33,648 nt of DNA from NCBI GenBank assembly GCA_000372785.1, contig KB889761.1:1-33648 (forward strand), read 5' to 3'. Made by a program: the position numbers and the translations under genes. Below the pieces are notes generated by a model. The model saw only the letters and a list, made by a program, of their open reading frames with translations, made no database searches and was not told the DNA's origin. Every line of letters starts with the position of its first letter. Within the stretch, counting starts at the first letter, position 1. Positions 7,822 through 28,108 of this stretch are shown here, one piece after another. The stretch comes from a gamma proteobacterium SCGC AB-629-P17. Lineage in GTDB: Bacteria; Pseudomonadota; Gammaproteobacteria; PS1; Pseudothioglobaceae.

Positions 7822-7840
7822 TAGATTGAAAGGTAGTTAG

Positions 7841-9083: not shown

Positions 9084-9086
9084 GTA

Positions 9087-9521: not shown

Positions 9522-9525
9522 TAAA

Positions 9526-10827: not shown

Positions 10828-10836
10828 GGGTTAGTT

Positions 10837-10950
10837 ATGAAAGTAAGAACATCTGTTAAAAAAATATGTAAAGATTGCAAAATTATTAAGCGACACGGAG
10901 TGATTCGTGTCATTTGTAAAGACCCTCGTCACAAGCAAAGACAAGGGTGA
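10837..10950 (+). CDS. rpmJ: 50S ribosomal protein L36
   Basis: A 37-residue protein, [17 protein letters not shown]...[15 protein letters not shown]. It has the C-x2-C...C-x4-H zinc ribbon of the zinc-binding L36 type, at Cys11, Cys14, Cys27 and His32. It follows secY by nine bases, as in other gammaproteobacteria, and is the last gene of spc. Confidence 0.95.
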
Positions 10951-10955
10951 TGACA

Positions 10956-10984
10956 TTGACAAATATTGATTTACAAAGTAAAAT
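10956..10984 (+). promoter_or_regulatory. Sigma-70 promoter of the alpha operon
   Basis: A perfect TTGACA (10956-10961), a 17-bp spacer and TAAAAT (10979-10984), one mismatch from consensus, lie in the only long gap of the ribosomal array (10951-11064). Transcription would start near 10991, about 74 bases before rpsM. This is the strongest promoter match I see in the window. Confidence 0.75.
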
Positions 10985-11011
10985 TTCACGATTTTTCGAT
11001 TTTAGAATTAT

Positions 11012-11030
11012 GGGTGAAAAAACTTCACCC
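11012..11030 (+). promoter_or_regulatory. Hairpin in the alpha-operon leader
   Basis: GGGTGAA (11012-11018) pairs with TTCACCC (11024-11030) around a five-base loop. It lies in the leader between the promoter and the rpsM start. It is not followed by a T tract, so it is not a terminator. In E. coli this leader folds into a pseudoknot bound by S4. This hairpin could be part of such an element, but I could not derive the full pseudoknot. Confidence 0.35.
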
Positions 11031-11064
11031 GAACGAAATATTTATTGAGGTATAGGTAGAATTT

Positions 11065-11418
11065 ATGGCACGAATTGCAGGAATAAATATTCCAACAGAT
11101 AAGCACATTGTAATTGGTTTGCAGTCAATTTTTGGTATCGGAAAAACCCGATCAAAATTAATTTGTGAAATACTAAAACTAGATCCTAGTACTAAGGTCT
11201 CTGAATTAACTGAAGATGAGTTGGAGTCCATACGTGCAACTGTGTCTAAGTATGAAGTAGAAGGTGATTTAAGACGTGAAGTTGCAATGAACATTAAACG
11301 TCTTAGAGACTTAGGTTGCTATAGAGGTATTCGTCACAGGAAATCACTTCCTTTGCGTGGTCAAAGAACAAAAACTAACGCCAGAACTCGTAAGGGCCCT
11401 CGACGTTTAATTAAATAA
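11065..11418 (+). CDS. rpsM: 30S ribosomal protein S13
   Basis: A 117-residue S13 ([31 protein letters not shown]) with the helix-two-turn-helix region and the basic tail ([20 protein letters not shown]) that touches P-site tRNA. It forms bridges to L5 and 23S rRNA. First gene of the alpha operon, behind its own promoter. Confidence 0.97.
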
Positions 11419-11434
11419 TTAGGGCATACTATTT

Positions 11435-11821
11435 ATGGCAACAGAACAATCAGCTAAAAAGAAGTCTAAGAAAATCGTTTCAGATGGAATTGCACACATT
11501 CATGCAACTTTTAATAATACTATTGTGATGATTACTGATCGTCATGGGAATACTTTATGTTGGGCTACTTCAGGTGGTGCAGGTTTTAGAGGTTCAAGGA
11601 AATCAACCCCTTTTGCTGCACAAGTTGCTGCAGGAAGTTGTGGTGAGAAAGCGCAAGCTATTGGTATGAAGAATCTTGACGTTCGAGTTAAGGGCCCTGG
11701 TCCAGGTAGAGATTCGGCTATTCGTGGCCTCAATGCACAGGGCTTAAAAATCCAATCAATAACTGATGTGACGCCAATTCCGCACAATGGGTGTCGTCCA
11801 TCTAAAAAACGAAGAGTATAA
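11435..11821 (+). CDS. rpsK: 30S ribosomal protein S11
   Basis: A 128-residue S11 with the family core ([46 protein letters not shown]) and the conserved C-terminal [18 protein letters not shown]. It lies on the 30S platform by the E site and the mRNA exit. Confidence 0.97.
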
Positions 11822-11830
11822 GGATAAATT

Positions 11831-12457
11831 ATGGCAAGATATACTGGCCCTACATGCAAATTAGCACGCCGTGAAGGCGCTGACTTAGAGCTTAAGAGCG
11901 GCATTAGATCGATAGACTCAAAGTGTAAATTATCACAGTTACCTGGTATGCATGGTGTAAACGCTCGTCGTCAAAAAGGTAGTGATTACGGCTTACAGTT
12001 GCGTGAAAAGCAGAAAGTTAGACGTATGTATGGCGTGTTAGAGAAACAATTCCGACTGTATTACAAAAAAGCGAGTTCAAAAAAAGGATCGACTGGAGAG
12101 AACTTATTGTCGCTGCTTGAGTGTCGCCTTGATAATGTGGTTTACCGTATGGGGTTCGCTTCAACTCGTTCAGAGGCGAGACAATTGGTTTCTCATAAAT
12201 CAATCGTAGTGAATGGTAAGGTTGTGAACATACCTTCTTATCAGGTAAGTGCAAATGATGAAATCTCTGTTAGAGAGAAATCAAAAAAACAAAACCGAAT
12301 TCAACTAGCCGTTGAGATTTCAGGACAGAATGGATTAGCTGAGTGGGTTGATGTTGATAACAAGTCATTGAAAGGTATATTTAAAAATGTGCCTTCTCGT
12401 GATGAGTTGTCAGCTGATATTTCAGAACATTTAATCGTTGAATTGTATTCTAAATAG
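11831..12457 (+). CDS. rpsD: 30S ribosomal protein S4
   Basis: A 208-residue S4 whose sequence follows the enterobacterial protein closely ([28 protein letters not shown], then an S4 RNA-binding domain [23 protein letters not shown], ending [15 protein letters not shown]). It is a primary assembly protein, and in E. coli the repressor of the alpha operon. It lies directly before rpoA in the classical order. Confidence 0.97.
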
Positions 12458-12466
12458 GAATTAAAT

Positions 12467-13447
12467 ATGCAAGGAAGTGCAAGAGATTTTCTAAAACCAA
12501 AACTAGTCGATTCAGTTGAATTGTCTGCAAACGAGTATCGTGTTGTTCTTGAGCCATTTGAGCGTGGTTTTGGACATACATTGGGAAATTCACTAAGAAG
12601 AACTTTATTGTCTTCTATGGTTGGTTCAGCAATTACTGAAGTTTCGATTGAAGGTGTAATGCATGAATTTTCAACCATTGAAGGTGTCCAAGAAGATGTG
12701 CTTGATATCCTTCTAAACCTCAAGGAAACTTCTGTAGGACTTAATGCGAGTGAAACTGCAACCGTAATCATCGAGAAAGAAGGCCCATCTCAACTAACTG
12801 GCGCAGATATTGAATCCAATGGTACTGATGTATCAGTATTCAACCCTGAGAAGGTTATCGCGACTATAAACGATGGTGGCAAAATTAGAATGACATTAAG
12901 GATTGATACTGGAGTTGGATACGATGTTGCCGTTTCTCGAACTGTTGAATCCGAAACTATTGGTAGTATTCAGTTGGATGCAAGCTTCTCACCAATTAAA
13001 CGTGTCAGTTTTACAGTTGAATCAGCACGTGTTGAACAAAAAGTAAACCTAGATAGACTTAATATTGTTATCGAAACAAACGGTTCGGTTGACGCAGAAG
13101 AAGCAGTTAAGCGTGCAGCAACGATATTGCAAGATCAACTCTCATCATTTGTAGAACTTGAGCCGGTGGTTGAGGAAGAACCGCAGCCGACTTCTGACGA
13201 TTTCCCGCCAATGTATTTGTCGGCTGTTGATGAGCTAGAGTTAACGGTTCGTTCTGCTAACTGTTTAAAGGCAGAGCAAATATACTATATTGGTGATCTG
13301 ATTCAAAAATCAGAACAGGACTTATTAAGGACACCAAACTTGGGTCGTAAGTCGCTTAATGAAATTAAAGAAGTCCTCACTGAAAAAAATCTTGAACTTG
13401 GTACAGAGATAGAAAACTGGCCGCCAGTTGATTTAATGAGTGATTAA
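12467..13447 (+). CDS. rpoA: RNA polymerase alpha subunit
   Basis: The 326-residue alpha subunit with both domains. The N-terminal assembly domain contains [23 protein letters not shown] (about residues 28-50). The C-terminal domain ([52 protein letters not shown], about residues 250-305) includes the arginine and asparagine used for UP-element and activator contact. Length and order are normal for gammaproteobacteria. Confidence 0.98.
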
Positions 13448-13456
13448 GGATAAATA

Positions 13457-13870
13457 ATGAGACACAGAAAGTCAGGTAGACAGCTTAACCGCAATTCATC
13501 GCATAGAAAGGCGATGTTTCAGAATATGGCAAATTCACTATTCTTGCATGAAGCTATTAAAACAACTTTGCCAAAAGCAAAGGAACTTCGTCGTGTAGTT
13601 GAGCCATTAATTACTAAGGCAAAATCAGACAGTGTCGCAAACCGTCGTCACGTATTTTCAAAGTTACGTGATGATGCAATGGTTGCAAAGTTATTTAGCG
13701 AATTAGGTCCATTTTATAAAGACCGTCCTGGGGGTTATGTTCGTATTCTGAAAGCGGGTTTTCGAACAGGTGACAAGGCCCCAATGGCTGTAGTGCAATT
13801 GGTTGATTTTGAAAGTGGTGAAGAAATTATTTCAGAAGATCCAATACAAGAAACACAAGAAGAATCTTAA
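13457..13870 (+). CDS. rplQ: 50S ribosomal protein L17
   Basis: A 137-residue L17 ([29 protein letters not shown] ... [27 protein letters not shown]). It carries a short acidic C-terminal end ([18 protein letters not shown]), modestly longer than usual. It lies near the tunnel exit and normally ends the alpha operon. Here another ribosomal gene follows after 12 bases. Confidence 0.96.
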
Positions 13871-13882
13871 GGGAATTATTAT

Positions 13883-14098
13883 ATGCCAGCAATTAAAGTA
13901 AGAGAGAACGAGCCATTTGATATAGCATTACGTCGTTTCCGACGTTTATGTGATCGAGCGGGTGTTATTACAGATGTAAGAAAAAAAGAGTTTTTTGAAA
14001 AGCCGACTTGGGTCAATAAACGCAAAAAGGCTGCAGCTGTTAAAAGAACACACAAAGAAATGGCAAAAAACCGTATTCATCGCAAACGTATGTACTAA
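13883..14098 (+). CDS. rpsU: 30S ribosomal protein S21
   Basis: A 71-residue basic protein ([28 protein letters not shown] ... [15 protein letters not shown]) of the normal S21 length and sequence. S21 helps the 30S subunit base-pair with mRNA leaders. In most gammaproteobacteria rpsU heads the rpsU-dnaG-rpoD operon. Here it lies 12 bases after rplQ with a GGGAA ribosome-binding site and no terminator in between, so it is probably read with the alpha operon. Confidence 0.95.
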
Positions 14099-14131
14099 GA
14101 GGCCTCTCTTGGCGCAACATAAATACGCAAA

Positions 14132-14578
14132 ATGTCTCAGCTAAAAAAACGCATTACCGACGATATGAAGTCGGCAATGAAAGCGAAAGACAAACAAGCC
14201 CTTAAAGCAGTACGTATGATTCTTGGGGCAATCAAACAAAAAGAAGTTGACGACCGCATCGAGCTAGATGATGCACATGTGATGGCCGTTATTCAAAAAA
14301 TGGTCAAGCAACGCAAAGATTCCATATCTCAGTTCTCTGACGCTGGTCGCAGTGACTTAGTAGAGGTAGAGGAGGCTGAACTAGTTATCATTAATAGCTA
14401 CATGCCAGAGCAACTAAGTGATGAAGAGGTAAAAGCAGCTGTCGTAAGGACAATAACCGATTGTGGTGCAGATTCTATGAAAGACATGGGCAAACTTATG
14501 GGTGTGCTCAAAGGTCAGCTAGACGGTAAAGCTGATATGGGTCTAGTTTCTCGTCTGATCAAAGACAAATTGTCATAA
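14132..14578 (+). CDS. yqeY: GatB/YqeY domain protein
   Basis: A 148-residue protein of the YqeY family (MSQLKKRITDDMKSAMKAKDKQALKAVRMILGAIKQKEVDDR, then QRKDSISQFSDAGR and AELVIINSYMPEQLSDEEV). The fold matches the tRNA-binding tail domain of GatB, the amidotransferase subunit; a role in tRNA handling is assumed but unproven. In many proteobacteria it sits beside rpsU, as here, so the pair has moved together. It ends six bases from the convergent AraC-family gene, and I see no terminator in that gap. Confidence 0.9.
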   Translation: MSQLKKRITDDMKSAMKAKDKQALKAVRMILGAIKQKEVDDRIELDDAHVMAVIQKMVKQRKDSISQFSDAGRSDLVEVEEAELVIINSYMPEQLSDEEVKAAVVRTITDCGADSMKDMGKLMGVLKGQLDGKADMGLVSRLIKDKLS

Positions 14579-14584
14579 ATCAAT

Positions 14585-15580
14585 CTAGTTTTGTAAACCC
14601 TTCTTGAAGGTGGTTGGTGTTATATTTGTTTGACTAATGAACCAGCGGATAAATGAAGAAGGTTCTGAGTAGCCGAGTAAATACGAGATAACTTTAACAG
14701 ACTGCCCCTCGTTTAACATCAGTTTCGCTCTTTTCAGCTTATGTTGGTTAAATGTTTGACGAAAATTCGTTTTATTTTTTGACAACTGATTGCGAAGCGA
14801 ATTAACACTCATACCCAGCTGACCAGATATTTTCTCAATGTTGACATTGTTGTAGTTATTTTCATAATTACATAGTAGGGTTTCCACTCTATCAATCATG
14901 TTGCTCCGGGTTTGCTTCTGTTGTAACTTTTCTTTAGCGATTGATGTTAAAAAAGCAACTAATTTTGAGTTAGAAAGACTATTTTTTTTCATAAAAGTAT
15001 TGTGGCTGATGGTGATAGAGGTTTCAGTGCCATTAAAAATAAGAGGACAATTAAAAACTGATTTTTTGTTAATTGATTGCTTGCTTGGCTGAATTTTGGT
15101 AGTAATATGTTTAATTGCATATCTTTTTGACCTGATAAAGGCGGCAAGCATTGACAAACACAAGTTTTCATATAGACTTGGGTATTCAATTACTGGGTCT
15201 GCAATGAATTGAATTTTGACTATGTCCTGATGTTTGTTGACTAAAACTTTGATACCCTCAAGTTCTATATTAATATATGTTTGAAGTAATTTAAAACTCT
15301 CTTTTAGGTTTCTTGAATACAAAAATATCAAACCTAATAATTCAGCATAGTTCGGTCTTATTTGCGCCAATTTAGAATAATTAATCGAGATCAGATCGTC
15401 ATCAAAAACGGACTCAGCTTGAATAAAAAAATTTAAAAACATCTCAATAGGTAGTGTTAAGTTTTGGTTTAATAATATTTTTTCAGGCAAACCTATTCTG
15501 CTACAAATTTCATCAACCTCTTTGGGATAAATTTGTTGGAATCTTAGAATGGATCTCCAAGCAATGCTATGTATGTTCAT
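14585..15580 (-). CDS. AraC-family transcriptional regulator
   Basis: This 331-residue protein has the two-part layout of the OruR/arabinose-binding-domain subgroup: an effector-binding N-terminal part (about residues 20-200, MNIHSIAWRSILRFQQIYPKEVDEI) and a C-terminal AraC/XylS DNA-binding domain with two helix-turn-helix units (about 235-328; GQLGMSVNSLRNQLSKN and VISYLLGYSEPSSFIRWF). It is divergent from the MttB-family gene across 126 bases, which suggests it controls that gene or the substrate that gene handles. The effector cannot be read from the sequence; a methylated amine such as betaine is a guess from context. Confidence 0.85.
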   Translation of the reverse strand: MNIHSIAWRSILRFQQIYPKEVDEICSRIGLPEKILLNQNLTLPIEMFLNFFIQAESVFDDDLISINYSKLAQIRPNYAELLGLIFLYSRNLKESFKLLQTYINIELEGIKVLVNKHQDIVKIQFIADPVIEYPSLYENLCLSMLAAFIRSKRYAIKHITTKIQPSKQSINKKSVFNCPLIFNGTETSITISHNTFMKKNSLSNSKLVAFLTSIAKEKLQQKQTRSNMIDRVETLLCNYENNYNNVNIEKISGQLGMSVNSLRNQLSKNKTNFRQTFNQHKLKRAKLMLNEGQSVKVISYLLGYSEPSSFIRWFISQTNITPTTFKKGLQN

Positions 15581-15581
15581 G

Positions 15582-15602
15582 CAATTAAAGTTTGGTTAAT
15601 TG
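15582..15602. promoter_or_regulatory. Inverted repeat, possible operator for the AraC-family regulator
   Basis: CAATTAA (15582-15588), a seven-base spacer and TTAATTG (15596-15602) form a perfect inverted repeat directly upstream of the regulator's start. A third CAATTAA occurs at 15635-15641 in the same intergenic region. Such spaced half-sites fit autoregulation by an AraC-type protein. The motif is AT-rich, so chance is possible. Confidence 0.35.
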
Positions 15603-15706
15603 TAATAAAGTGTTAATATTTTATTATATTATGTCAATTAAAATTCTCTTAAATCTGTTGGTCACCGTATTTTTTCACATTCTAATAGATATGATACATA
15701 ATATAG

Positions 15707-16495
15707 ATGTCTAGAAGAAAATCGGCACGAGCCGCTAAACAAGCCCAAAGAGCAAAAGCGCCTGAAATAAATCCGTGCCCTCCGGGACAGATTGGCGGTC
15801 AATATAAGCCACTATCAGACCCTCAAGTCAAGCAAATTTATAATGAAGCTCTGCGTATATTAGAACAGATTGGTATGACTGATGTTCCAAAAGTTCTTGA
15901 AACGCAGGCCTTGGCTCATGGTGCAAAAAAAAATAAACAAGGGAGGCTTTGTTACCCTAGCTCTATGGTAGAAAGCATAATTACTTCTGCTTGTAAACAG
16001 TTTACCTTTTATGGTCGTGACCCTAAGCATGATATTGTAGTTGGCGGTGATAAGGTTTATTTTGGAACAGGTGGAGCAGCAGTTCAAACTCTAGATATAG
16101 ATACTGAAGAGTATCGACCTTCAACCTTGTCTGATTTATATGACTTCACTCGCCTTATTGATCAACTATCTAATGTCAGTTGGTTTACTCGGTGCTGCAT
16201 TGCGACTGATGTTGAAGATAATTTCGAACTGGATGTCAATACTGCATACGCACTATTAAAGGGAACCACAAAGCCAGTAGGTATGAGTTTTCATATTGCT
16301 GAGCATGTTGGTCCAATTATCGATATGTTTGATATTGCATTAGGTGGAAAGGGAAAGTTTTCTGATAAACCATTTTGCAAGGCTCATATTAGTCCAGTTA
16401 TCTCGCCGCTAAAATATGGCGAAGACGGGGTGATGGTGGCAATAGCTTGCATGAAACGCGGATATCCGCAAATTTTTTGTCACTATACTTATTAA
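15707..16495 (+). pseudogene. MttB-family methyltransferase, 5' half, interrupted
   Basis: Residues 1-252 (MSRRKSARAAKQAQRAKAPEINPCPPGQIGGQYKPLSD ... PVISPLKYGEDGVMVAIACMKRG) are the N-terminal half of a trimethylamine methyltransferase (MttB)-family protein. After base 16462 the sequence turns to the fadE upstream region and adds ten foreign residues (YPQIFCHYTY) before a stop. The remaining 250 residues lie at 21582-22334. The family moves a methyl group from a quaternary or tertiary amine to a corrinoid protein. No in-frame TAG appears in either half, so this is the non-pyrrolysine type, whose studied members use glycine betaine or related compounds. No partner corrinoid protein lies in the window. 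There is no clear Shine-Dalgarno before the ATG. Confidence 0.88.
16393..16462 (+). repeat. 70-bp direct repeat, left copy (mttB)
   Basis: Bases 16393-16462 are identical to 21512-21581. In this copy the repeat continues mttB from the left and ends exactly where the sequence leaves mttB. Its first seven bases (TCCAGTT) also occur in fadA, so the mttB-derived part is 63-70 bp. Confidence 0.97.
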
Positions 16496-16553
16496 TCATT
16501 TGTTGAAGAGTGCATCTCGTTTAACCTGAAGTTCTAAATAAGCATCAACTTTT

Positions 16554-19010
16554 ATGTTAGAAAATATATTTCAATATTCATTTTTTTCATTTGTGTTAAT
16601 AAGTTTTTTGCTTTTACTTGTATTGGTAAAAACAAAATTAAAACTTTGGCAGGTATGGTTGTTGGCTACCGCGTTGGCATATCCTGGTGCAGTTATATCT
16701 GGTCATTTAGGTGCGCAGATTATATTCGTTATACTGTTGTTTCTAGGAATATTTCTTGTCCCTAAAATCAGATTATTAATATTTACTAAGCCCCTGTTTA
16801 ATGCCATGCGAAAGGCATTACCTCCAATCGGTTTGACTGAGAGAATTGCACTCGAAGCAGGAAGCGTTTGGTGGGATGCTGAACTGTTTCAAGGGAACCC
16901 AAATTGGAAAGAGTTATCAGAACTGGAGGCAACAGAACTAACAGAAGAGGAACAGAGTTTTATTGACAATGAAGTTAATACGCTCTGTTCTATGATCAAC
17001 TCTTATGAAATAGTGGAAAAGCAAGATCTGACAGAAGAGGTCTGGCGCTATATTTTCGATAATGGTTTTCTTGGCATCATTATTCCCAAAGAGTTCAATG
17101 GTTTAGGATTCTCACACTTTGCACATGCAACAATTGTAGGCAAACTTTCCTCTGCTTCTCAATTTTTAGGTATTGCTGTTATGGTTCCAAATTCATTGGG
17201 TCCTGGAGAGCTACTTCTTAAATATGGTACTGAAAAACAAAAACAACATTACTTACCTCGCTTGGCAAAAGGCCAAGAGATTCCTTGCTTTGGCCTGACG
17301 TCAACTGTTGCCGGTTCTGATGCCGGTTCACTTGAAGACAATGGCATTGTTTGTTATGGAGACCATGAGGGCGAGAAGGTATTAGGGCTCAGGCTCAATT
17401 GGGAAAAGCGCTACATTACACTGGCCCCTATTGCCACAGTAATCGGTTTGGCTTTTAAGGCCTATGATCCAGACAACTTATTGCCCAAAGACCACCCTCT
17501 TTATGGAAAAAATGATTTAGGTATTACCTGTGCGCTGATACCTCGCGAGACTCAGGGCGTCAGCATAGGCACTCGTCATCTTCCAGTTGGAGAGCCTTTT
17601 CAAAATGGCCCTATTTATGGTAAAGATGTCTTCATACCAATGGACTGGATTATTGGTGGTGAAAAGATGATTGGCAATGGCTGGAGAATGTTGATGGAGA
17701 GTTTAAGTGTTGGCAGAGGTATTTCTTTGCCGGTCACCGGTGCATCTGCAACACAAGCAATGCTCCTAACCACAAGTGCCTATTCGCAAACCCGTGAGCA
17801 GTTTGGTATTTCAATAGCAAGTATGGAAGGTATTCAAGAGAAACTCGCAACGCTAGCGACCAACGCATACAGGGCGACCGCTAACATTAACCTGTCGACA
17901 TGGGCTCTTGATGCTGGGCATAGACCTTCAATCATCTCTGCCATTGTTAAATATCGAAATACCCAGTTACTTCAACAGTCCTCGATTGATGCTATGGATG
18001 TTCATGGTGGAAGGGCAGTTATGCAAGGTAAAAGAAACTATGTGGCTAACGTCTATACTGGAGCTCCGGTCGCTATTACTGTTGAGGGGGCGAACATACT
18101 GACTAGAAGTTTAATGATTTTTGGACAAGGCTTAATTCGTTGCCATCAAACGATGCTCGATGAACTAAATGCACTTCATGATAATAACAAAGAATCAATT
18201 CTAAATTTTGACAGAGCGCTCACAAAACATGTCGGAAACTTTATGAGGAATATTGCAAGGGCAATCCTTTTTTCTTGGACTCGTGGGCGTTTGGCAAAAC
18301 CCTATGGCGATTCTACCACTAAGGTGTTTTATCGAAATTTGGCAGTTTTATCGGCCAAGTTTGCATGCCTGAGTGATATTGCTTTATTGCTATTGACGGG
18401 CTCTTTAAAGCGTAAAGAGATGGTTTCGGGCCGTTTTGCCGATGCAATTTGTGCAATGTATGAAATTAGCGCCTGCTTGAAGCTGTATGAGGAAAAATTT
18501 CAAAACGACGACAAGGTAAAAAGCATTTTGAAGTTGTCTATCCTTCAATTAGTTAAAGAAGCAGATACAGCGATGCTAACTAATATAGAAAGCTTGCCAG
18601 TTAATCGAGTTGTAAAATTACTATTGAAGTTTTTATTCTTTCCATTTTCTGTAACGAATGCCAAAGTAGATGACAGGTTAATTGTTTCTAGTTCCAAATC
18701 CATTGCTGATATTAACTGGTTATTTGAAAATTTCTCAAGTTGCTTGTGCTCTAAATTAAAAGATATTCCTGATCATCCATTCTATATTTTATTTCAAGGC
18801 TATGAGGCGGGAATTTTGTTAAAAGCACTCAAACAAAAGGTCAAAAAAGCTGGATACAAATACCAGCCGAGTGTAACCCTAGAGGCCTGGTTGCAGGAGC
18901 TAGTTGATAGTGATGTTTTAGCCAGCGAAGAAAAAAATGACTGGGTACGATTAAATGAAATAGTTCTCGAATCACTTAAGGTTGACGATTTTAAAAAATT
19001 AGAGACATAA
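16554..19010 (+). CDS. fadE: Acyl-CoA dehydrogenase, FadE type
   Basis: At 818 residues this has the length of E. coli FadE and its domain order: two hydrophobic N-terminal segments (about 10-27 and 35-70) that anchor it at the inner membrane, then the FAD-dependent dehydrogenase domain. Signature stretches are YGTEKQKQHYLPRLAKG (224-240), CFGLTSTVAGSDAG (245-258) and REQFGISIASMEGIQEKLA, followed by the long FadE C-terminal region. It makes the trans-2-enoyl bond in the first step of beta-oxidation. The ribosome-binding site is poor. fadB follows after 15 bases. The copy appears intact although it lies inside mttB. Confidence 0.93.
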   Translation: MLENIFQYSFFSFVLISFLLLLVLVKTKLKLWQVWLLATALAYPGAVISGHLGAQIIFVILLFLGIFLVPKIRLLIFTKPLFNAMRKALPPIGLTERIALEAGSVWWDAELFQGNPNWKELSELEATELTEEEQSFIDNEVNTLCSMINSYEIVEKQDLTEEVWRYIFDNGFLGIIIPKEFNGLGFSHFAHATIVGKLSSASQFLGIAVMVPNSLGPGELLLKYGTEKQKQHYLPRLAKGQEIPCFGLTSTVAGSDAGSLEDNGIVCYGDHEGEKVLGLRLNWEKRYITLAPIATVIGLAFKAYDPDNLLPKDHPLYGKNDLGITCALIPRETQGVSIGTRHLPVGEPFQNGPIYGKDVFIPMDWIIGGEKMIGNGWRMLMESLSVGRGISLPVTGASATQAMLLTTSAYSQTREQFGISIASMEGIQEKLATLATNAYRATANINLSTWALDAGHRPSIISAIVKYRNTQLLQQSSIDAMDVHGGRAVMQGKRNYVANVYTGAPVAITVEGANILTRSLMIFGQGLIRCHQTMLDELNALHDNNKESILNFDRALTKHVGNFMRNIARAILFSWTRGRLAKPYGDSTTKVFYRNLAVLSAKFACLSDIALLLLTGSLKRKEMVSGRFADAICAMYEISACLKLYEEKFQNDDKVKSILKLSILQLVKEADTAMLTNIESLPVNRVVKLLLKFLFFPFSVTNAKVDDRLIVSSSKSIADINWLFENFSSCLCSKLKDIPDHPFYILFQGYEAGILLKALKQKVKKAGYKYQPSVTLEAWLQELVDSDVLASEEKNDWVRLNEIVLESLKVDDFKKLET

Positions 19011-19025
19011 ATTAATAGGAAAACC

Positions 19026-21464
19026 ATGAAACAATATTTTGATAAAGCTTTTAGCAAAATTGCCGTACTCGGCTCAGGCACCATGGGTGGTCAAATTGCA
19101 GCACATTTCGCGAATTTAGGCTTCGAGGTTGTTATGTTTGATGTGAGTGAAGAAGTCTTAGCTAAGTCACTTGCAGTTCTAAAAAAACTCAAACCAACAC
19201 CTTTAGCAAGTCAATCGGTGATTGATTTAATTAAAACGTCTACTTACGAGTCGATGGATATTTTAGCGCAGTGTGATTTTATTATTGAATCTGTCGTTGA
19301 AAATCTAGACATCAAAAAACAATTATTTGCCAATATAGCGCCTTATGTTAGCGACAACGCAGTTCTAGTTACAAACACCTCTGGATTGTCTATCCAAAAA
19401 ATTGCTGAACATTCGCCGGAACATTTGAGAAGCCGAATTTTTGGAGTCCATTTCTTCAACCCGCCTAGATACTTACCTCTAGTTGAAATCATTAGAACCT
19501 CTTATAGTGATGAAAAACTACTCAATAAGGCTGAAGGCTTTATCACTTCTGCATTAGGCAAGGAGGTTGTCTATGCAAAAGATAACCCGGCGTTTATTGC
19601 CAATAGGATTGGTGTCTTTTCTTTATTGGCTGTCCTGAAACATGCAGACAATTTCTCTCTTTCCGCGGATACTGTTGACGCCCTGACTGGTAAGAGAGTC
19701 GGTAGGCCTGCTAGTGCAACCTTTAGAACACTAGATGTTGTTGGACTTGATGTGATGTCGAATGTAGTCAAGAATATATATGAGAATGCTAAGGAGGACC
19801 CTTGGATTGACTTATTTAAATTACCGATATGGATTGATGACTTAATTGAAAAAGGTTTTCTTGGAAGTAAAACAAAGAAGGGTGTTTACGAAAAAAAAGG
19901 AAAGGATATTTATGTTTTTGATCCTAAGAAAAATGAATATAGGCTATCAGATAAAACTATCAGCCCTGAAGTCAAAAAAATTCTTAAAGAAAATGGCAGT
20001 ATAGAAAAGGCCTTACTGTCTTTATCCGAATGTGATGATCCTCAGGCTCAGTTTTTATGGTCTGTCTATCGGGATGTTTTTCACTATGCCTGTTATCAGT
20101 TAGAGCATTTGGCTGAAACTGTGAGGTGTGTTGACTTGGCACTGAAATCTGGCTTTGGATGGCAAAGAGGTATATTTGAACAGGCTCAGCTGACTGGTTG
20201 GAGTGAGATGAGAGATAACTTAATAGCCGATATTGATAGTGGCAAGGTACTTTTAGAAGAGCCATTGCCATCTTGGGTCTCAGATAGGTCCTTTGTTTAT
20301 AGCGAAGAAGGTGCCTTTGATCCAAAAAAAGATCAATATATTCCGAGATCTTCTCATCCTGTTTACGATAGGCAACTATTTAAACCTCTACTGCATGGAG
20401 AGAAACAACACCAACAAGAAGTTTTGTTAGAAAGTGATACAACTAAGCTCATTGATATTGGAGATGGTGTTGCTAGTATATCTTTTAAAACGAAAATGAA
20501 TGTTTTAAGTTCAGGTGTCTTGGTTGATATTCCTAATTGTCTTGATTTTCTTGAGGAAAATGGCTTTCATGCTTTGATATTTAGACAAGAAAAAGAACAT
20601 TTTTGTGCTGGCGCAAATCTGTATGAAATTATTTCAGCGATTAAGCTGGGTCTTTTAGAAAAAGATCCAGGGGTGGCTTCAAAAGCTAAGAAGAAGGCCT
20701 TTGAAGTTATGCATCCAGAACTACCAAAACTGGGCAAGCTCTACTCGATTAAAAAAACTGTCTCTATGCTGCAGGAATCACTGATGCGTTTAAAGCATGG
20801 CAGAATACTAACCATAGCAGCAGTTGATGGACTGGCTTTGGGGGGTGGTTGTGAGCTGCTCTTGCATTGCAATAGAGTGGTTGCCTCAATGAACTCTTTT
20901 ATCGGACTGGTTGAAGTGGGTGTTGGAGTTTTTCCTGCAGGCTGTGGTAGCAAGGAGATGGCTTTAAGGGCATATTCCAATAAAGAAACAGACGATATTT
21001 TTCCATTGCTGTCTAAGTACTTTGAGCAAATTGCCATGGCTAAATTTTCAGCAAGCGCTTTAGAGGCCAAAGAAATGGGCTACCTGAAAGCTGACGATAT
21101 TATTATTGCCAATCCAAACGAGTTGCTTTATGTTGCAAAACAGCAAGCACTGTCATTACTTGAATCTGGCTTTAAGCCACCTTTAGATACTACTTTCAAG
21201 GTTGTTGGTAAGGCAGGTTATGCCAACATTATGGCGCAGGTCGCGAATCTTTATGAGGGCCACTTTATGTCGGATCACGATAATGTAATTATTACTCGTC
21301 TAGCTAAAGTAATGACTGCCTCAAAAGTTGAAGAGAATACCGTAGTTAACTCACAAATGATCCTTGACTTGGAAAAAAAGTATTTTATTGAACTCTTAGG
21401 AACGCAAAAAACTCAGGACCGGATTGAATACATGTTAAAGAATAGCAAACCGCTTCGTAATTAA
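19026..21464 (+). CDS. fadB: 3-hydroxyacyl-CoA dehydrogenase / enoyl-CoA hydratase, fused
   Basis: An 812-residue two-domain beta-oxidation enzyme. The N-terminal part is the NAD-dependent dehydrogenase: GSGTMGG (16-22) binds the nucleotide, and His142 in HFFNP plus Glu154 form the catalytic pair. The C-terminal part is a crotonase: FCAGANL (526-532) forms the oxyanion hole, and Glu610 in GGGCEL and Glu630 match the two catalytic glutamates. This order is the reverse of E. coli FadB and resembles Bacillus FadN. It would partner with the FadA thiolase. A second copy of its 3' end is at the right edge of the window. The symbol reflects function, not orthology. Confidence 0.92.
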   Translation: MKQYFDKAFSKIAVLGSGTMGGQIAAHFANLGFEVVMFDVSEEVLAKSLAVLKKLKPTPLASQSVIDLIKTSTYESMDILAQCDFIIESVVENLDIKKQLFANIAPYVSDNAVLVTNTSGLSIQKIAEHSPEHLRSRIFGVHFFNPPRYLPLVEIIRTSYSDEKLLNKAEGFITSALGKEVVYAKDNPAFIANRIGVFSLLAVLKHADNFSLSADTVDALTGKRVGRPASATFRTLDVVGLDVMSNVVKNIYENAKEDPWIDLFKLPIWIDDLIEKGFLGSKTKKGVYEKKGKDIYVFDPKKNEYRLSDKTISPEVKKILKENGSIEKALLSLSECDDPQAQFLWSVYRDVFHYACYQLEHLAETVRCVDLALKSGFGWQRGIFEQAQLTGWSEMRDNLIADIDSGKVLLEEPLPSWVSDRSFVYSEEGAFDPKKDQYIPRSSHPVYDRQLFKPLLHGEKQHQQEVLLESDTTKLIDIGDGVASISFKTKMNVLSSGVLVDIPNCLDFLEENGFHALIFRQEKEHFCAGANLYEIISAIKLGLLEKDPGVASKAKKKAFEVMHPELPKLGKLYSIKKTVSMLQESLMRLKHGRILTIAAVDGLALGGGCELLLHCNRVVASMNSFIGLVEVGVGVFPAGCGSKEMALRAYSNKETDDIFPLLSKYFEQIAMAKFSASALEAKEMGYLKADDIIIANPNELLYVAKQQALSLLESGFKPPLDTTFKVVGKAGYANIMAQVANLYEGHFMSDHDNVIITRLAKVMTASKVEENTVVNSQMILDLEKKYFIELLGTQKTQDRIEYMLKNSKPLRN

Positions 21465-21518
21465 TTGGAGAATAAAATGGGAAAAGCTTATATCGTAGAT
21501 GCAAAAAGAACTCCAGTT
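21424..21518 (+). repeat. 95-bp inverted repeat, left copy (fadB end/fadA start)
   Basis: These bases are the exact reverse complement of 33554-33648, the last 95 bases of the window. They cover the last fadB codons, the fadB-fadA gap and the first fadA codons. The match ends at 21518, where this copy turns into mttB. Its other end is unknown because the window stops. Confidence 0.96.
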
Positions 21519-22334
21519 ATCTCGCCGCTAAAATATGGCGAAGACGGGGTGATGGTGGCAATAGCTTGCATGAAACGCGGAATGCCTATCAACAACATTA
21601 TTGCTGCTATGCCCGGTGCGACAGCACCTGGACCAATAGCAGGATCTCTCTCGCTTACACTAGCTGAGACACTTTCCACCCTTGTAATGACAAATGTTTT
21701 TGAGTTAGGTTATCCGATGATTTTTGGCAACTGGCCTCTTGCTATCGATTTGCGTACTGGTGCATTTAGAGGGGGTAGTGGTGAAATGGCTTTGCTCAAC
21801 GCAGCATCCGCTCAACTCTCGAACTCTCTTGGCCTTCCATCGGGTTGCGCTTGTAGTATGAGTGATTCGAAATCTCCAGATGCACAAATGGGTATGGAAA
21901 AAGCACTCACTGCATTAGCTTGTGGACTAGCGGGAGGAAATATGATCTATGAATCTTCAGGCATGATGGCGAGCTTGCTAGGCGCATCATTTGAAGCATT
22001 CGTGATGGATGATGAAATGCTCTCACTTATTTATCGAATGATTAGAGGCATAGAAGTCAACGAACAAAGTTTAGAGTTCGAATCAATTCAATCTGTCGTC
22101 TCTGATACGGGGCATTTTTTGGGGCAACCTGAAACAATGTTATCGATGGAGAGAGATTATTTCTATCCAAAGTTAGCCGATCGTGAAGAGCCAATTGTAT
22201 GGCAAGAAAAAGGCTCACTCAATCATTTAAGTAGAGCAAAAAGCAGAGCCAAGGAACTACTTAAACATCACCCAAATTATTTAACTAGTGAGATCGATAA
22301 TTCAATTCGGAAGGCTTACCCTATTCTTCTATAA
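21477..22334 (+). pseudogene. Fusion ORF: start of fadA joined in frame to the 3' half of the MttB-family gene
   Basis: The ORF begins with the fadA start (MGKAYIVDAKRTP, ATG at 21477 behind a GGAG Shine-Dalgarno) and passes in frame at 21512-21518 into MttB-family sequence (ISPLKYGEDGVMVAIACMKRG, then MPINNIIAAMPGATAPGPIAGSLSL to the C-terminus IRKAYPILL). The second part contains the conserved PGATAPG and barrel segments and the normal C-terminal end. Alone it is half a methyltransferase barrel and unlikely to be an enzyme. Being in frame, behind an intact ribosome-binding site and at the end of fadE-fadB, it could still be translated. A TTG at 21465 is a less likely start. Confidence 0.85.
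21512..21581 (+). repeat. 70-bp direct repeat, right copy (mttB)
   Basis: Identical to 16393-16462. Here the repeat is entered from fadA (shared TCCAGTT at 21512-21518) and continues into the rest of mttB at 21582. Deleting 16463-21581 rejoins the gene in frame. Confidence 0.97.
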
Positions 22335-22407
22335 TTCAATCATTTAAAGAAACTCTACAATATGAAAACGACGCCCGAAAGCGCCGCTATCATAAAAAGC
22401 TAGATTA

Positions 22408-23565
22408 TTATAAAGTTACTTGACCCAATGAAACCCACTTACCACTCTGAACCTGACTTAAGACAACCACTTGCGTCCCTATATGGTCATCAGCACCATA
22501 GCTCCAGCCTATTCTGCCAAAAGTATCTTGATGCTCGCTAATTGCCTCTAGTCCATCCATTAATGAATCAACAGTTAAGTCAGCACCAGCATTCTCAAGT
22601 CCAGCTACTACTAAATCAGCGGCAGTGTAGCCCAACTGCCCCGAAATACCTGGATCAGTGCCGTGCTGCGCTTTATAGGTATCACAAAATGCTTGAGCGC
22701 TTGCGGGAGCACTATCACAGTAGACAGCCTCACCCACACTTGCAGCGTACAATCCTTCTGTTATGCCGCCTGGGAAACCTGCAACCATGGTGTCAAAGCC
22801 GGCTTGTGTAACCACCACATCCGCGGTAATACCTAGTTTGCGAGCAGTGGCATAGCCTGTAATCGTATCACGAATAATTGTACCGAACACGATCAGGTCG
22901 CAGCCTGCCCCTTTAAAGCCTACCATTGCACCAACGAATTCGGTATCAGTTGGCTTATGCGCAAAACTAGAAACCAAGCTCACTCCACTGTGTTCTGCCA
23001 CTTCATCTGTTACCGCCTCTAGCACTTCAGTGCCATAGGCAGTGTCTTGATACATCACACATGCTGATGTCCTTCCTGTTGCAAGAAAATGACCAACTGC
23101 AAATCTGATTTGATTGTAATAACTTGAGCCGAAGGTGAGCTTAAGGTCGTGCTCAGGCTCCTGAACCGATTTTGCGGTAGTCATTGGGAACAACATAGGC
23201 ACGTTGTTGGCAAACTGGGTTTCGGCTGTCGCTAGATTCATTGGCGTGCCGAGTACGTTGAATGTAGCGAACACTTTGTCAAGGTTCATCAATTTGTTCA
23301 TCGCCTTGACGTGGATTGGAACCTGATATTGGTGATCCTCTAGGACAACACGTATCTGTCTCCCATGTACACCGCCGTCTTCATTTGCCATGTCAAAACG
23401 GATCTGTGCTGCCCGGCTTGCCGCAACACCCCAAAGCGCCGCCGGTCCACTCAGCGCGGTTGACGTTCCAAGAACAACTTCATCGTCGGTTACTCCTTGA
23501 GCCATAACCCCAGCGCTCAAGGCTAGGCAGACCAATCCTGCCGTGATATTATTTAGTTTTTTCAT
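22408..23565 (-). CDS. livK: Periplasmic substrate-binding protein, branched-chain amino acid ABC type
   Basis: A 385-residue protein with a Sec signal peptide (MKKLNNITAGLVCLALSAGVMA, cleavage likely after Ala22) and the type-I periplasmic binding fold of the LivK/Peripla_BP_6 family (DDEVVLGTSTALSGPAALWG ... AAQIRFDMANEDGGVHGRQIRVVLED). It captures the ligand for the LivHMGF importer encoded upstream. It is the last gene of the minus-strand cluster, about 100 bases after the CoA ligase, with a good AAAGGA ribosome-binding site. The ligand is not certain: this subgroup is often found with acyl-CoA ligases and can bind aromatic or aliphatic acids, amides or amino acids. Confidence 0.88.
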   Translation of the reverse strand: MKKLNNITAGLVCLALSAGVMAQGVTDDEVVLGTSTALSGPAALWGVAASRAAQIRFDMANEDGGVHGRQIRVVLEDHQYQVPIHVKAMNKLMNLDKVFATFNVLGTPMNLATAETQFANNVPMLFPMTTAKSVQEPEHDLKLTFGSSYYNQIRFAVGHFLATGRTSACVMYQDTAYGTEVLEAVTDEVAEHSGVSLVSSFAHKPTDTEFVGAMVGFKGAGCDLIVFGTIIRDTITGYATARKLGITADVVVTQAGFDTMVAGFPGGITEGLYAASVGEAVYCDSAPASAQAFCDTYKAQHGTDPGISGQLGYTAADLVVAGLENAGADLTVDSLMDGLEAISEHQDTFGRIGWSYGADDHIGTQVVVLSQVQSGKWVSLGQVTL

Positions 23566-23666
23566 AGTTTTTATCCTTTTATTGATTATTATTAATTACA
23601 CCTTTTTGGTATCAATATACCTGCTTCTTGCTACTTGCACAAATATGCAAAATACTCTGCTCTATA

Positions 23667-25493
23667 TTAAGAGTACATCTGATTAATCAAATCAGCATAC
23701 TTTTCATTGACAATGTTGCGTTTTAACTTCATGCTCGCTGTCAACTCGTCATCTTCAACCGTCAGCTGTTTGTCGATCAGCCTGAATTTTTTCAGAGTTT
23801 CAGCTTGCGCCAAAGATAGATTGATTCGTTCAATTTCACTTTTAACGAGCGACTGTACCTCTGCTGTTTCACATAAACTTTTAAAATCAGAGAACGGGAC
23901 ATTATTTTCTTGGGCAAACTGGCTCACTGTCTCATTGTCGATCATCACCAAACAGGTGAGGTATTTACGCCTATCGCCGATCACCACTGCATCAGTCACA
24001 TAGGGCGAGAATTTCAGCTGGTTTTCAATCTCCGAGGGGCTGATATTCTTGCCACCGGAGGTGATAATAATGTCCTTCTTCCTATCCACAATCTTGACGA
24101 ATCCATCGGCATCGATCTCTGCTATGTCACCGGTGTAAAGCCAGCCATCAACGATTGTCTCAGCGGTTTTAAGCTCTTGCTTGTAATACCCTTTGAACAC
24201 CAAAGACCCCCTAATCATCAGTTCGCCGTCTTCAGCGGTTTTCAGCTCAACGCCTGGAGGCGGCTTGCCAACCGTGCCCAGGCGAACCTGGCCCCGATAG
24301 TTGCCGCATGCAAACGCCACATTTTCAGTTTGACCAAACGCCTCATAAAGTGGTACACCCAAAGCGCGAAACCACTCGATCAAGTCCGGTGATATAGGCG
24401 CAGCGCCAGTCAGACCAATTCTGACTCGGTCCAAACCCAAAAGAACTTTAATGTTGTTAAGAACAAGAAGATCTGCAGCTCTGTGCATCAGGCGGACATG
24501 CGTTGGAACAGGCAAGCCCTTGTCTTCAAAATCAGCAGCTCTGGAGCCGGCGGATATAGCGATTTGCAGAGCTTTTCTACCAAACCATGTTGCGTCTTTC
24601 ATGCGTAATGTAATGGATGAATACATTTTTTCCCAGATTCTGGGCACACCCAGGAAGTAGGTTGGTGAAACTTCGGTAATATTTTCGAATGCAGTATCTT
24701 GACCTTCAATAAAGTTAACTGTTGAACAGCGTGCCAAAGGTAAAAACACCGATAAAAGTCGCTCGGTAATGTGACACAGCGGTAGGTAAACAACCGATTC
24801 ATCTTCTGCCATGATTGGGTAAAACTCATGAAAGGCCTGGGATATGAAAATAAGATTTCTGTTGCTGATCATCGCCCCTTTTGGAGCGCCGGTCGTGCCT
24901 GAGGTATAAACCAAAATCGCTGTATCATTGGGTTCTGCGCTGTCAATTCGCCTATTCCATTCTGACTCAAGATTCTCGACGTCCTCATCGCCTAATCGGT
25001 AGAATTGCTCCAGCATGACTACTTTGGGGTGGTCCAGATCAGCCAGTCCGGTGGAGTCCAGAACAACCACCGTATGGATATTGGGCAGCTGCTCTTCCAC
25101 TGCCAGATACTTGTCAAGCTGCTCTTCGTTTTCAACTATCAGTAGCGTCGTATCGCTGTCTTTACAAATATGAAGAATTTGAGGCGCCGAATCCGTCGCA
25201 TAGATGCCACAGGAAACACAGCCAATACACTGGGCGGCGAGGTCGAAAAACAGCCACTCTTTGCATGGGTCGGCGAGTATGGAGACGGTTTGGCCAGACC
25301 CCAGCCCCAACGTCATCATAGCCTTGCCTATGCGGGTACTATTCGAATAATACTGCTCCCAGGAAAACGTTCGCCAGATGCCAAAATGCTTCTCGCGCAT
25401 GGCGACTTTATTCTTTAGCACTTGTGCCCTAAATCGAAACAATGCTGGAATCGAGATTTGATTGTCAAGGCTGATGATTTCTTCAGTGCTCAT
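23667..25493 (-). CDS. AMP-dependent acyl-CoA synthetase in the ABC importer operon
   Basis: A 608-residue adenylate-forming enzyme of the long-chain acyl-CoA synthetase (FadD15-like) group. It has the P-loop YTSGTTGAPKG (196-206), YEAFGQTE (383-390), the YTGD motif (453-456), DRKKD (470-474) and the GGKNISPSEIE hinge (480-490). It would activate a carboxylic acid with ATP and CoA. Its place between livF and livK, three bases after livF, implies that it traps the imported acid as a CoA ester. The substrate cannot be read from the motifs. It differs from the shorter FadD-type enzyme at 29172-30821. Confidence 0.88.
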   Translation of the reverse strand: MSTEEIISLDNQISIPALFRFRAQVLKNKVAMREKHFGIWRTFSWEQYYSNSTRIGKAMMTLGLGSGQTVSILADPCKEWLFFDLAAQCIGCVSCGIYATDSAPQILHICKDSDTTLLIVENEEQLDKYLAVEEQLPNIHTVVVLDSTGLADLDHPKVVMLEQFYRLGDEDVENLESEWNRRIDSAEPNDTAILVYTSGTTGAPKGAMISNRNLIFISQAFHEFYPIMAEDESVVYLPLCHITERLLSVFLPLARCSTVNFIEGQDTAFENITEVSPTYFLGVPRIWEKMYSSITLRMKDATWFGRKALQIAISAGSRAADFEDKGLPVPTHVRLMHRAADLLVLNNIKVLLGLDRVRIGLTGAAPISPDLIEWFRALGVPLYEAFGQTENVAFACGNYRGQVRLGTVGKPPPGVELKTAEDGELMIRGSLVFKGYYKQELKTAETIVDGWLYTGDIAEIDADGFVKIVDRKKDIIITSGGKNISPSEIENQLKFSPYVTDAVVIGDRRKYLTCLVMIDNETVSQFAQENNVPFSDFKSLCETAEVQSLVKSEIERINLSLAQAETLKKFRLIDKQLTVEDDELTASMKLKRNIVNEKYADLINQMYS

Positions 25494-25496
25494 TCT

Positions 25497-26273
25497 CTAT
25501 CTCCAGGTTTTTCGCATTTTCCAGCGGCGCTTTTCTCGACCTATTGCTTGCTTTTTCCCTAAATAGAACTCCTGAATGTCAGAGCTGTTTAACAGGGTGT
25601 CACGGTCTCCGTCAAAAACAATCCGTCCCACTTCGATCACGTAGCCAGCGTGCGAAACCTTCAAGGCCATGTGTGCATTTTGCTCCACCAGAAGCATGGT
25701 GACGCCTTGTTCGGTGTTGAGGCGGTAGATAATGTTAAAAATTTCACTAACCAGCAATGGTGAGAGGCCAAGAGACGGCTCGTCCAGAAGTAGAATTTCC
25801 GGTCGCATCATTAACGCTCTTCCCATAGCCAACATTTGCTGCTGCCCTCCAGATAGAAGAACGGCCTGTAAATTGATCTTGTTCTTTAAGTCTGGAAAAT
25901 AATGGAAAACCATATCCAAATCGACATCGATCTCATTTTTGTCTTTGCGGCTGTAGGCCCCCATTTCCAGATTTTCCTTGACGGTTAGAAAAGGAAACAC
26001 CTCCCTGCCTTCAGGTACGTGGCCCATACCTTGCTTGGCGGTCTTGTCCGGCTGCCAAGCGGTAATGTCTTGGCCGGAAAAAACCACCGTACCTTTTTGT
26101 GGCTCCAGCGCGCCACAAATAGTTTTCAGGATTGTGGTTTTTCCGGCACCATTTCCTCCCAAAATACTAACGATTTGCCCCTCATAAACATCAAGGCTTA
26201 TCCCACGAATCGCTATTACAGGGCCATAAAACGTTTCTATATTGCGCACTTTCAACAATGGAGATTCGCTCAT
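25497..26273 (-). CDS. livF: ABC importer ATP-binding protein LivF
   Basis: A 258-residue ATPase with Walker A GGNGAGKTT (39-47), signature LSGGQQQMLAMGRAL and Walker B ILLLDEPSLGLSP, followed by the C-terminal FYLGKKQA typical of LivF. A basic end (GREKRRWKMRKTWR) extends beyond the usual C-terminus. It powers transport together with LivG. The start overlaps the livG stop by four bases (ATGA) behind a GGAG site. Confidence 0.92.
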   Translation of the reverse strand: MSESPLLKVRNIETFYGPVIAIRGISLDVYEGQIVSILGGNGAGKTTILKTICGALEPQKGTVVFSGQDITAWQPDKTAKQGMGHVPEGREVFPFLTVKENLEMGAYSRKDKNEIDVDLDMVFHYFPDLKNKINLQAVLLSGGQQQMLAMGRALMMRPEILLLDEPSLGLSPLLVSEIFNIIYRLNTEQGVTMLLVEQNAHMALKVSHAGYVIEVGRIVFDGDRDTLLNSSDIQEFYLGKKQAIGREKRRWKMRKTWR

Positions 26274-27034
26274 TGCACATCTCCCAGATATGCGGAAACG
26301 ACCTCAGGATGGCTCTGTACAAAAGCATGATCTCCTTCAGTGACAACCTTACCATTGACAATTGCCAGAACTCGATCAGAGACCTCCGCCACTAAAGACA
26401 TGTCGTGTTCAATTAAAACAACGGTCATGTTTAAGTCTCGCCTGATATCCTCAATCCAAAATCCCATTTCCTCTGTCTCCTCAGGATTGAGCCCTGATGA
26501 GGGTTCGTCTAGTAACAACAGCTTAGGTTCAATGCAAAGAGCTCTTGCCAACTCAATCTTCTTTCGCACGCCATAGGGCAGACCCGAGATCATTTGGTTT
26601 CGATAATGGGCCAGCTCCAGAAAATCAATCACTTCCTCCACTTTTCTTCGATGTTCCAGTTCCGCCTCTACGACGCTACCAGTGAATAATAATTGACGCC
26701 ACCAGCTTTGAGTGTTGTGCACATGTCTGCCCACCAAGAGATTTTGCAAAACAGAAGCATGTTCGAACAACTCCAGATTTTGAAACGTTCTGGCGATACC
26801 TAGGCGTGCAATGTCTTTGGCCTCAAGCTCCAATAGGTCGTTGCCGGAAAAGTTCAGCTGCCCAGATAGGGGTTCGTAGAAGCGGCTCAATAAATTGAAG
26901 ATGGTAGATTTTCCTGCGCCGTTTGGTCCGATGATTGCATACACCGAACCCTCTTCGACAGCAAAACTCACATCGTCGACCGCTTTGACGCCGCCAAAGG
27001 AGATGGAGAGGTTCTCGATTTCTAGGAAGCTCAT
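26270..27034 (-). CDS. livG: ABC importer ATP-binding protein LivG
   Basis: A 254-residue ATPase with Walker A GPNGAGKST (37-45), a divergent signature LPYGVRKKIELARAL, Walker B LLLLDEPSSGLNP and the LivG C-terminus (VVTEGDHAFVQSHPEVVSAYLG). It pairs with LivF below LivH and LivM. The LPYG form of the signature is common in the subgroup linked to acyl-CoA ligases rather than to leucine uptake; that is recollection, not a search. Overlaps livM by four bases. Confidence 0.92.
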   Translation of the reverse strand: MSFLEIENLSISFGGVKAVDDVSFAVEEGSVYAIIGPNGAGKSTIFNLLSRFYEPLSGQLNFSGNDLLELEAKDIARLGIARTFQNLELFEHASVLQNLLVGRHVHNTQSWWRQLLFTGSVVEAELEHRRKVEEVIDFLELAHYRNQMISGLPYGVRKKIELARALCIEPKLLLLDEPSSGLNPEETEEMGFWIEDIRRDLNMTVVLIEHDMSLVAEVSDRVLAIVNGKVVTEGDHAFVQSHPEVVSAYLGDVQ

Positions 27035-28107
27035 CTTAATCGCTCCGTTTTCAGGTAGACCCTCTGGCGCTTAAAACTCTTGCGTCTATAAATAGGGAAG
27101 AATTCCATATAGCTGCGAATCTTGATCCAACGGCCGTAGATACCGGTTGGCTCGAATACGATCACGCTGATCAGTATGACCCCAAAAACGAACGGCTCTA
27201 TTCCTGGCAAGCCACCAATCGAGGATGGCAGGGTATCTTTCGCAATCGATATGCCAGTTTCTAGTACGCCAATCAATACAGCCCCGAAAAATACGCCATG
27301 GACAGTGCCAAGACCTCCTAATACGATCATCAATAGCAATTGGATGGACAATAAAATTCCGAATATTTGAGGTGTCAGAAACGACATATAGTGTGCCAAA
27401 AAGGCGCCCGCTAGACCAGTTATGGCAGCTGATATGGTAAATGCAAAAACCTTAATTTTCATTGGGTTCACACCCAATGCCTGTGATGAGACTTCGGAGT
27501 CTCTTACCGCAATCATTGCACGTCCCAGTGGAGAGCGCAATATATTCAACACTGCGAGTGTAGCAGCGATCAAGATGGTTAAGACAAGCAGGTACAGTTC
27601 CCAGGGCTCCCATATTTGATAGCCAAACAGTGTTGGAACATCAACCATCATGCCTCGATTTCCGCCAGTGATACTGTTAAGATGGCCAGCAAAGTCCTCT
27701 ACAATAATAGCAAAGGCTAGTGTTGCGATTGCCAAATATATGCCTGACATCCGTGCAGCAGGGATAGCGACTAGTAGACCTCCTATCATGCTCAGCAAGG
27801 CGGCCATTGGCAGCGCTACAAAGGAGGAAAACCCCTGGGCTAGAAACCAGGCATTTGTGTAAGCACCAATCGCCAAAAATGCCGCGTGACCGAGACTGAC
27901 CTGGCCTGTAAAGCCGGTTAGCGCCATTAAACCCAAACCTGCCATGGCATAGATTAGTATCCGCGTTGCCTCACCGATATAATAGCCACCGAGTATTAGT
28001 GGCGCTGCAAATAGAACGAGAATCAGCAAACCATACCAAAAGCGGTGTCCACCATGTTTTGCTAGATTTAAGTCTTGCTTATAATTAGTTTTAAACAGGA
28101 TTCTCAT
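27031..28107 (-). CDS. livM: ABC importer membrane protein LivM
   Basis: A membrane permease of 358 residues with many hydrophobic segments and the family motifs GFTGQVSLGHAAFLAIGAYTNAW, AVRDSEVSSQALGVNPMKIKVFAF and GLGTVHGVFFGAVLIG. I chose the ATG at 28105-28107, just after the livH stop and preceded by AAAGAAG. A TTG start ten codons earlier (28137) would overlap livH by 29 bases. The C-terminus is basic (RRKSFKRQRVYLKTERLR). Confidence 0.9.
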   Translation of the reverse strand: MRILFKTNYKQDLNLAKHGGHRFWYGLLILVLFAAPLILGGYYIGEATRILIYAMAGLGLMALTGFTGQVSLGHAAFLAIGAYTNAWFLAQGFSSFVALPMAALLSMIGGLLVAIPAARMSGIYLAIATLAFAIIVEDFAGHLNSITGGNRGMMVDVPTLFGYQIWEPWELYLLVLTILIAATLAVLNILRSPLGRAMIAVRDSEVSSQALGVNPMKIKVFAFTISAAITGLAGAFLAHYMSFLTPQIFGILLSIQLLLMIVLGGLGTVHGVFFGAVLIGVLETGISIAKDTLPSSIGGLPGIEPFVFGVILISVIVFEPTGIYGRWIKIRSYMEFFPIYRRKSFKRQRVYLKTERLR

Positions 28108-28108
28108 A

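Follow-up and report, generated by a model that had tools for sequence, protein, structure and literature searches.

The window analysed here (33,648 nucleotides) is the entire contig C5 of G000, a 1.42-Mb draft genome of a SUP05/Thioglobus-like marine sulfur bacterium in 70 contigs that is 77% complete with 5.4% contamination, and whose named relatives are mostly members of the SUP05 cluster, Ca. Thioglobus or unnamed Gammaproteobacteria. It carries an MttB-family gene (mttB) in two pieces: the ORFs at 15707-16495 and 21465-22334 both match Pfam MTTB (PF06253, 500 positions), the first half over profile positions 1-252 and the second over 225-486. An exact 70-nt direct repeat is present in both halves (16393-16462 = 21512-21581, spacing 5119), and joining 15707-16462 to 21582-22334 gives 502 codons with one terminal stop. 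Halves, repeat and join had been described in a first-pass annotation, and all of their coordinates are exact. The ORFs and Pfam also bear out its placement of complete fadE and fadB and the start of fadA between the two halves, as the fadE-type ORF (16554-19010, 818 aa) and the fadB-type ORF (19026-21464, 812 aa) are complete and are followed by the fadA start. The pieces of the window are the following.

1-15640, + strand: segment A, the left part in its native arrangement, with rplQ, a YqeY gene and an AraC-type regulator plus its upstream region at the right end (colinear with relatives; Pfam)
14585-15580, - strand: the AraC-type regulator (Pfam)
15641-15647, + strand: joint J1, AAATTCT, present both between AraC and fadE and at the 3' end of a dehydrogenase-like gene upstream of mttB
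15641-16462, + strand: segment D', ~60 bp from the end of the dehydrogenase-like gene followed by the 5' half of mttB, with contig C2 before it in the native state
16393-16462, + strand: copy 1 of the 70-bp mttB stretch, the proposed overlap of a hop's exit and re-entry points
16463-16473, + strand: joint J2 between mttB and the fadE upstream region, with ~11 nt (TATCCGCAAAT) that match neither of the two
16474-21518, + strand: segment B, the fadE upstream region, fadE, fadB and the first fadA codons, natively directly right of 15640-15650
21512-21518, + strand: joint J3, TCCAGTT, common to fadA and mttB
21512-22334, + strand: segment D'', the 3' part of mttB, beginning 70 bp upstream of the point where the 5' half stops
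22335-33553, - strand: segment C, with genes for a periplasmic binding protein (PBP), an AMP-ligase, a branched-chain ABC transporter, an AMP-ligase, a DUF2889 protein and a nitronate monooxygenase (NMO) family protein, and fadA (Pfam)
33554-33648, - strand: contig end, an exact 95-bp inverted copy of 21424-21518 that represents the native fadB-fadA joint

The far end of the contig shows where segment B belongs. The 95-bp copy at this end runs into an intact fadA (thiolase) gene at 32402-33607 (- strand). This fadA is the proper counterpart of the fadB at 19026-21464 and lies at the opposite end of C5, so that the native fadB-fadA joint is contained in the same assembly. Beyond these 95 bp, neither fadE nor fadB turned up a second time in a whole-genome search of G000, and the proposed duplication of the fad genes is unsupported. 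An equivalent situation is found for mttB. Positions 1-81 of contig C2 are identical to 15641-15721 in inverted orientation and are followed by the dehydrogenase-like gene, the 3' end of which is the sequence found directly before mttB in the window. The native upstream joint of mttB is therefore also in the assembly, with its neighbour gene on C2, and the joint at 15641, where the AraC side meets the mttB side, must be counted as a third foreign joint.

Relatives of the same genus agree with this assignment. In 14 of 18 of them the AraC-region and fadE matches lie within ~320 bp of each other on one contig, too close for a piece of mttB to lie between them, and in G008 and G017 the equivalent of position 15650 directly abuts the equivalent of 16474 in the fadE upstream region. 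Among the other four, G001 has its AraC match ~2.9 kb away with a 45-bp intergenic match nearer, and G005, G015 and G018 miss one or both of the AraC and fadE matches. A search for the same insertion in related genomes, which had been suggested as a check, showed the new AraC joint to be absent in the 14 informative relatives out of 18. The same check for an intact mttB was positive: G001 has a 507-aa orthologue which is 77% identical to the joined mttB in a gap-free alignment, and the protein search (78%) placed it in genomic surroundings that differ from those in the window. No other close orthologue was found in 12 same-genus genomes searched with the protein, where the remaining matches reached at most 41%. 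As an observation apart, contig C34 of G017 contains 83 bp (42994-43076, L076) that are 93% identical to 22258-22340, comprising the mttB 3' end and downstream bases; G017 shows no further DNA match to the mttB of the window, and the stretch could be the remnant of a deleted mttB.

Segment A is colinear with AH-558-A21 (L048) over 8284-15650, with G008 over 13290-15650, with G017 over 13897-15650 and with G012 over 11862-15645, and segment C is reverse-colinear with contig C52 of G012 and with AH-558-A21, that is, inverted with respect to the native order that we propose. Judging from these sequences, this order would be AraC (-), fadE, fadB, fadA, NMO, DUF2889, ligase, ABC transporter, ligase, PBP, mttB (-), dehydrogenase (-) and C2. 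When the pieces are rearranged in this way (A, B, reversed C, reversed mttB, C2), they align to G012 over a single stretch of 20.1 kb, and to AH-558-A21 over two stretches, of 7.4 and 14.9 kb. Furthermore, C2 contains, 9 kb from its start, a ligase-like gene that by eye from its translation may be an acetoacetyl-CoA synthetase; G008 and G012 have a matching gene on the downstream side of the corresponding transporter cluster. In G017, C2-type sequence and the fad cluster share one contig. This one gene order, together with hops between opposite strands, accommodates every piece of the window and leaves none over. With the first 9000 bp of C2 (L066) included, the interval between the PBP and ligase genes, which in G008 and G012 contains a TAXI/TRAP-type transporter, comprises mttB, the dehydrogenase, a hydrolase gene and an ABC transporter of the dipeptide type in G000, an arrangement that by eye looks like a strain-variable uptake island; the names acetoacetyl-CoA synthetase, short-chain dehydrogenase, X-Pro peptidase and TAXI/TRAP used for C2, G008 and G012 were all given by eye from translations.

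All three hops join opposite strands; in the proposed native order they span 17.8, 17.0 and 12.0 kb. The shared stretch at J1 is up to 7 bp, and relatives differ there by 1-2 bases. No template for the filler at J2 was found on either strand of the window or of the first 12 kb of C2; the search yielded only its own site and an 8-nt match at 24550. A perfect 12-bp palindrome, GCGGATATCCGC, is located at 16458-16469 in J2, with half of it inside the filler. The first-pass annotation had explained the locus by a single replication template switch that left mttB at 16462, copied fadE, fadB and the start of fadA, and returned 70 bp upstream through TCCAGTT. This geometry fits two of the three joints; what does not hold is the single switch, as three joints (15641-15647, 16462/16463 and 21512-21518) are required and all are between opposite strands. 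A transposon with a target-site duplication can be ruled out, since the 70 bp are mttB coding sequence and are explained by overlapping exit and entry points.

Taken together, these data make us confident that the split mttB is a chimera formed in vitro when the whole genome was amplified by strand displacement with phi29 (multiple displacement amplification, MDA) and kept by a short-read assembler, and that mttB and the fad operon are each single and intact natively. The growing 3' end would have left the AraC-fadE intergenic region for the opposite strand upstream of mttB (J1), copied ~820 bp of upstream-mttB and mttB sequence, and then hopped back to its point of departure (J2). It would next have copied fadE and fadB into fadA and entered mttB by a hop through TCCAGTT at a point 70 bp short of the earlier exit (J3), and the 70-bp repeat would be the overlap between the copy's exit from and re-entry into mttB. 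We infer the amplification of the G000 DNA with phi29 from the pattern itself, and likewise that the tube and not the cell was where the hops took place, that one molecule carries them all, and in which order they followed. An amplification chimera had already been named as a caveat to the in-cell event, and it is what the joints, the native order and the inverted contig ends support. Several points speak against it, among them the length of the hops and the outcome for the control G008 (see below). The three joints must arise close together, and in G000 the native joints are present for fadB-fadA and upstream-mttB only: searches of this assembly found neither the native AraC-fadE joint nor an mttB unbroken across 16393-16462, so that at these two places the chimeric forms are those that were assembled. 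The assembler would be expected to leave the halves unmerged, as the 70-bp repeat is shorter than the 95-bp overlap usual at contig ends.

In order to look beyond this locus, we took 21 of the 27 contigs (C5 aside) that are at least 10 kb long and compared their 70-bp ends (41 ends) with the whole assembly, scoring the best 40 of 41-68 candidates per comparison. On this basis, at least 21 of the 41 ends recurred elsewhere at 97-100% identity over their full tested length, at least 14 of them in the same contig and at least seven in another contig. All 14 same-contig copies were inverted, an outcome expected about once in 16,000 if orientation were random. Two more ends, of C5 and C15, came to light in other comparisons and so were not chosen blindly; they too have inverted same-contig copies and bring the figure to 16 of 16. 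In all, 43 of the 140 contig ends were compared with the whole assembly or with large pieces of it. Inverted same-contig end copies were observed in C1, C2, C3, C4, C9, C11, C12, C15, C24, C46, C57, C68 and C69. Among the overlaps with surroundings fetched, 12 are exactly 95 bp (11 of 14 for the inverted end copies, C5 included), and most overlaps are 100% identical. The 95 bp might correspond to the k-mer size of the assembler; the portions of PMC10224968 and PMC4549626 available to us name the single-cell mode of SPAdes and give no k of 95. Exceptions in detail are a match of at least 709 bp in C57, a 38-bp partial inverted match at the start of C35 (left uncounted), a C9 start that also matches C10 directly, a C12 end lying inside an array with weaker direct copies (76-89%), and the start of C5, which had no match among the fetched pieces. 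In addition, at least 2862 bp are identical between C9 (L237) and C10 (L238) (C9:1-2862 = C10:139-3000), a duplicate that was left unmerged in the draft.

In four cases two contig ends meet inside a contig: at C15 14250-14256 (L233, 7 shared bp), C2 135895-135903 (L232, 9 shared bp), C68 43648-43657 (L236, 10 shared bp) and C12 4247-4259 (L239, ~13 shared bp). These are likely to be further chimeric joints with microhomology, both native continuations of which were left dangling. Similar mis-stitching appears likely at other places of the same draft genome, and an independent case comes from contig C46, which has an inverted joint near 8348-8358. Both sides of this joint are in native order in four of five relatives and in the assembled order in none, the region being absent from the fifth relative, G008.

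Two genomes from records titled MAG served as controls, with 13 of 20 fetched ends used for each and the best 40 of 41-68 candidates scored. Among the scored candidates, the only inverted same-contig match for the 13 ends of G012 was a 32-bp self-palindrome, and four of these ends matched other contigs over 55-59 bp. In G008, none of 13 ends had a second copy among the scored candidates. The contig name of G008, AG-464-B02, is however presumably a single-cell label, and together with the 0/13 ends this would not fit the chimera pattern unless its ends had been trimmed. Single-cell pipelines of this type probably trim contig ends.

A related structure is present in the deposited record AFHY01000034 (L058) from SCGC AAA007-O20, a label that we take to denote a single cell, SCGC presumably being a single-cell centre. 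There, fadB is left at the equivalent of 20302 for 66 bp inverted from 18559-18624 and ~10 nt, with a return at 20303, and after 36 bp the sequence inverts again into the equivalent of window 3870-1321. The record thus has two inverted joints, in fadB and at the window-equivalent 3870, and is itself a likely chimera. It resembles the window, and in particular J1-J2, in its clade, its fad locus, its inverted stretch with ~10-nt filler and its return at the exit point; it differs in the positions and in the insert, which is 66 bp vs about 820 bp.

The alternative that survives best, although we consider it very unlikely, is a real and recent inverted duplication in the chromosome of one SUP05 cell, A-[D'B]-D''-C(inverted)-[B D' inverted]-C2, in which a 5.9-kb unit (15641-21518) would be present twice, inverted, flanking an inverted 12-kb segment, and would have arisen by microhomology template switching. 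Both mttB copies would then be broken and fadE-fadB doubled. The assembly at the locus is consistent with this, as both branch points are the exact ends of 15641-21518 and the same contig graph would be expected, and the two native joints not found in G000 would be accounted for. Nevertheless, the same inverted-end pattern at 15 other ends of G000 indicates a process that is not special to this locus, the arrangement is not seen in the 14 same-genus relatives in which AraC and fadE adjoin (the other four of 18 being uninformative), and the order at C46 is contradicted by four of five relatives. An error of the assembler or scaffolder alone, with no chimeric molecules among the reads, seems to us still more improbable: the fixed 95-bp overlaps at contig ends are what a k-mer assembler would leave, but the 7 bp or fewer shared at J1 and J3, and none at J2, would be too short for such an assembler to join, and an inverted bias of 14/14 or 16/16 is unexpected for repeat-induced misjoins. 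That the assembly includes a rearranged strain or sub-population has next to no probability: native and rearranged joints do coexist, the contamination estimate is 5.41% and the ends of some small contigs look foreign by eye, but such a mixture would have to hold at many loci together, with same-contig copies always inverted and most overlaps 100% identical, without strain divergence.

An amplification chimera is thus the reading that we retain, and the split mttB is most likely a laboratory artefact of a gene that is intact in the cell. The proposed inactivation of mttB is unsupported, the event having most likely taken place in vitro, and the false claim that the cell inactivated mttB and duplicated its fad genes is removed. 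Moreover, G000, which is a species representative, probably holds many inverted chimeras, and gene orders in this draft are probably not to be trusted at those places. Comparing each contig end with the whole assembly and counting orientations would be a cheap screen for such genomes.

Template switching of the MMBIR/FoSTeS type within cells also produces microhomology joints and a return to the original template, like those in the window. However, it would be a single heritable event, whereas in G000 the signature recurs at many contig ends and two native joints survive. The chimeras described for MDA offer a closer comparison. According to Lasken and Stockwell (2007; PMC1855051), a single amplified E. 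coli cell yielded 475 chimeras that were mapped, 406 of them inverted, with about one joint per 22 kb; 83% of the inversions were under 10 kb, and complementarity of at least 2 bp (range up to 21) was present in 76.8% of joints, falling to only 34.8% of inverted joins over 10 kb. Compared with these data, the window is unusual in its hops of 12-18 kb instead of under 10 kb, which is a tendency and not a requirement, in having three joints in one contig and in the ~11-nt filler of J2. On the other hand, it matches these chimeras in that segments of opposite strands are joined, the defect recurs in the assembly, and two of the three joints share up to 7 bp, within the published 2-21.
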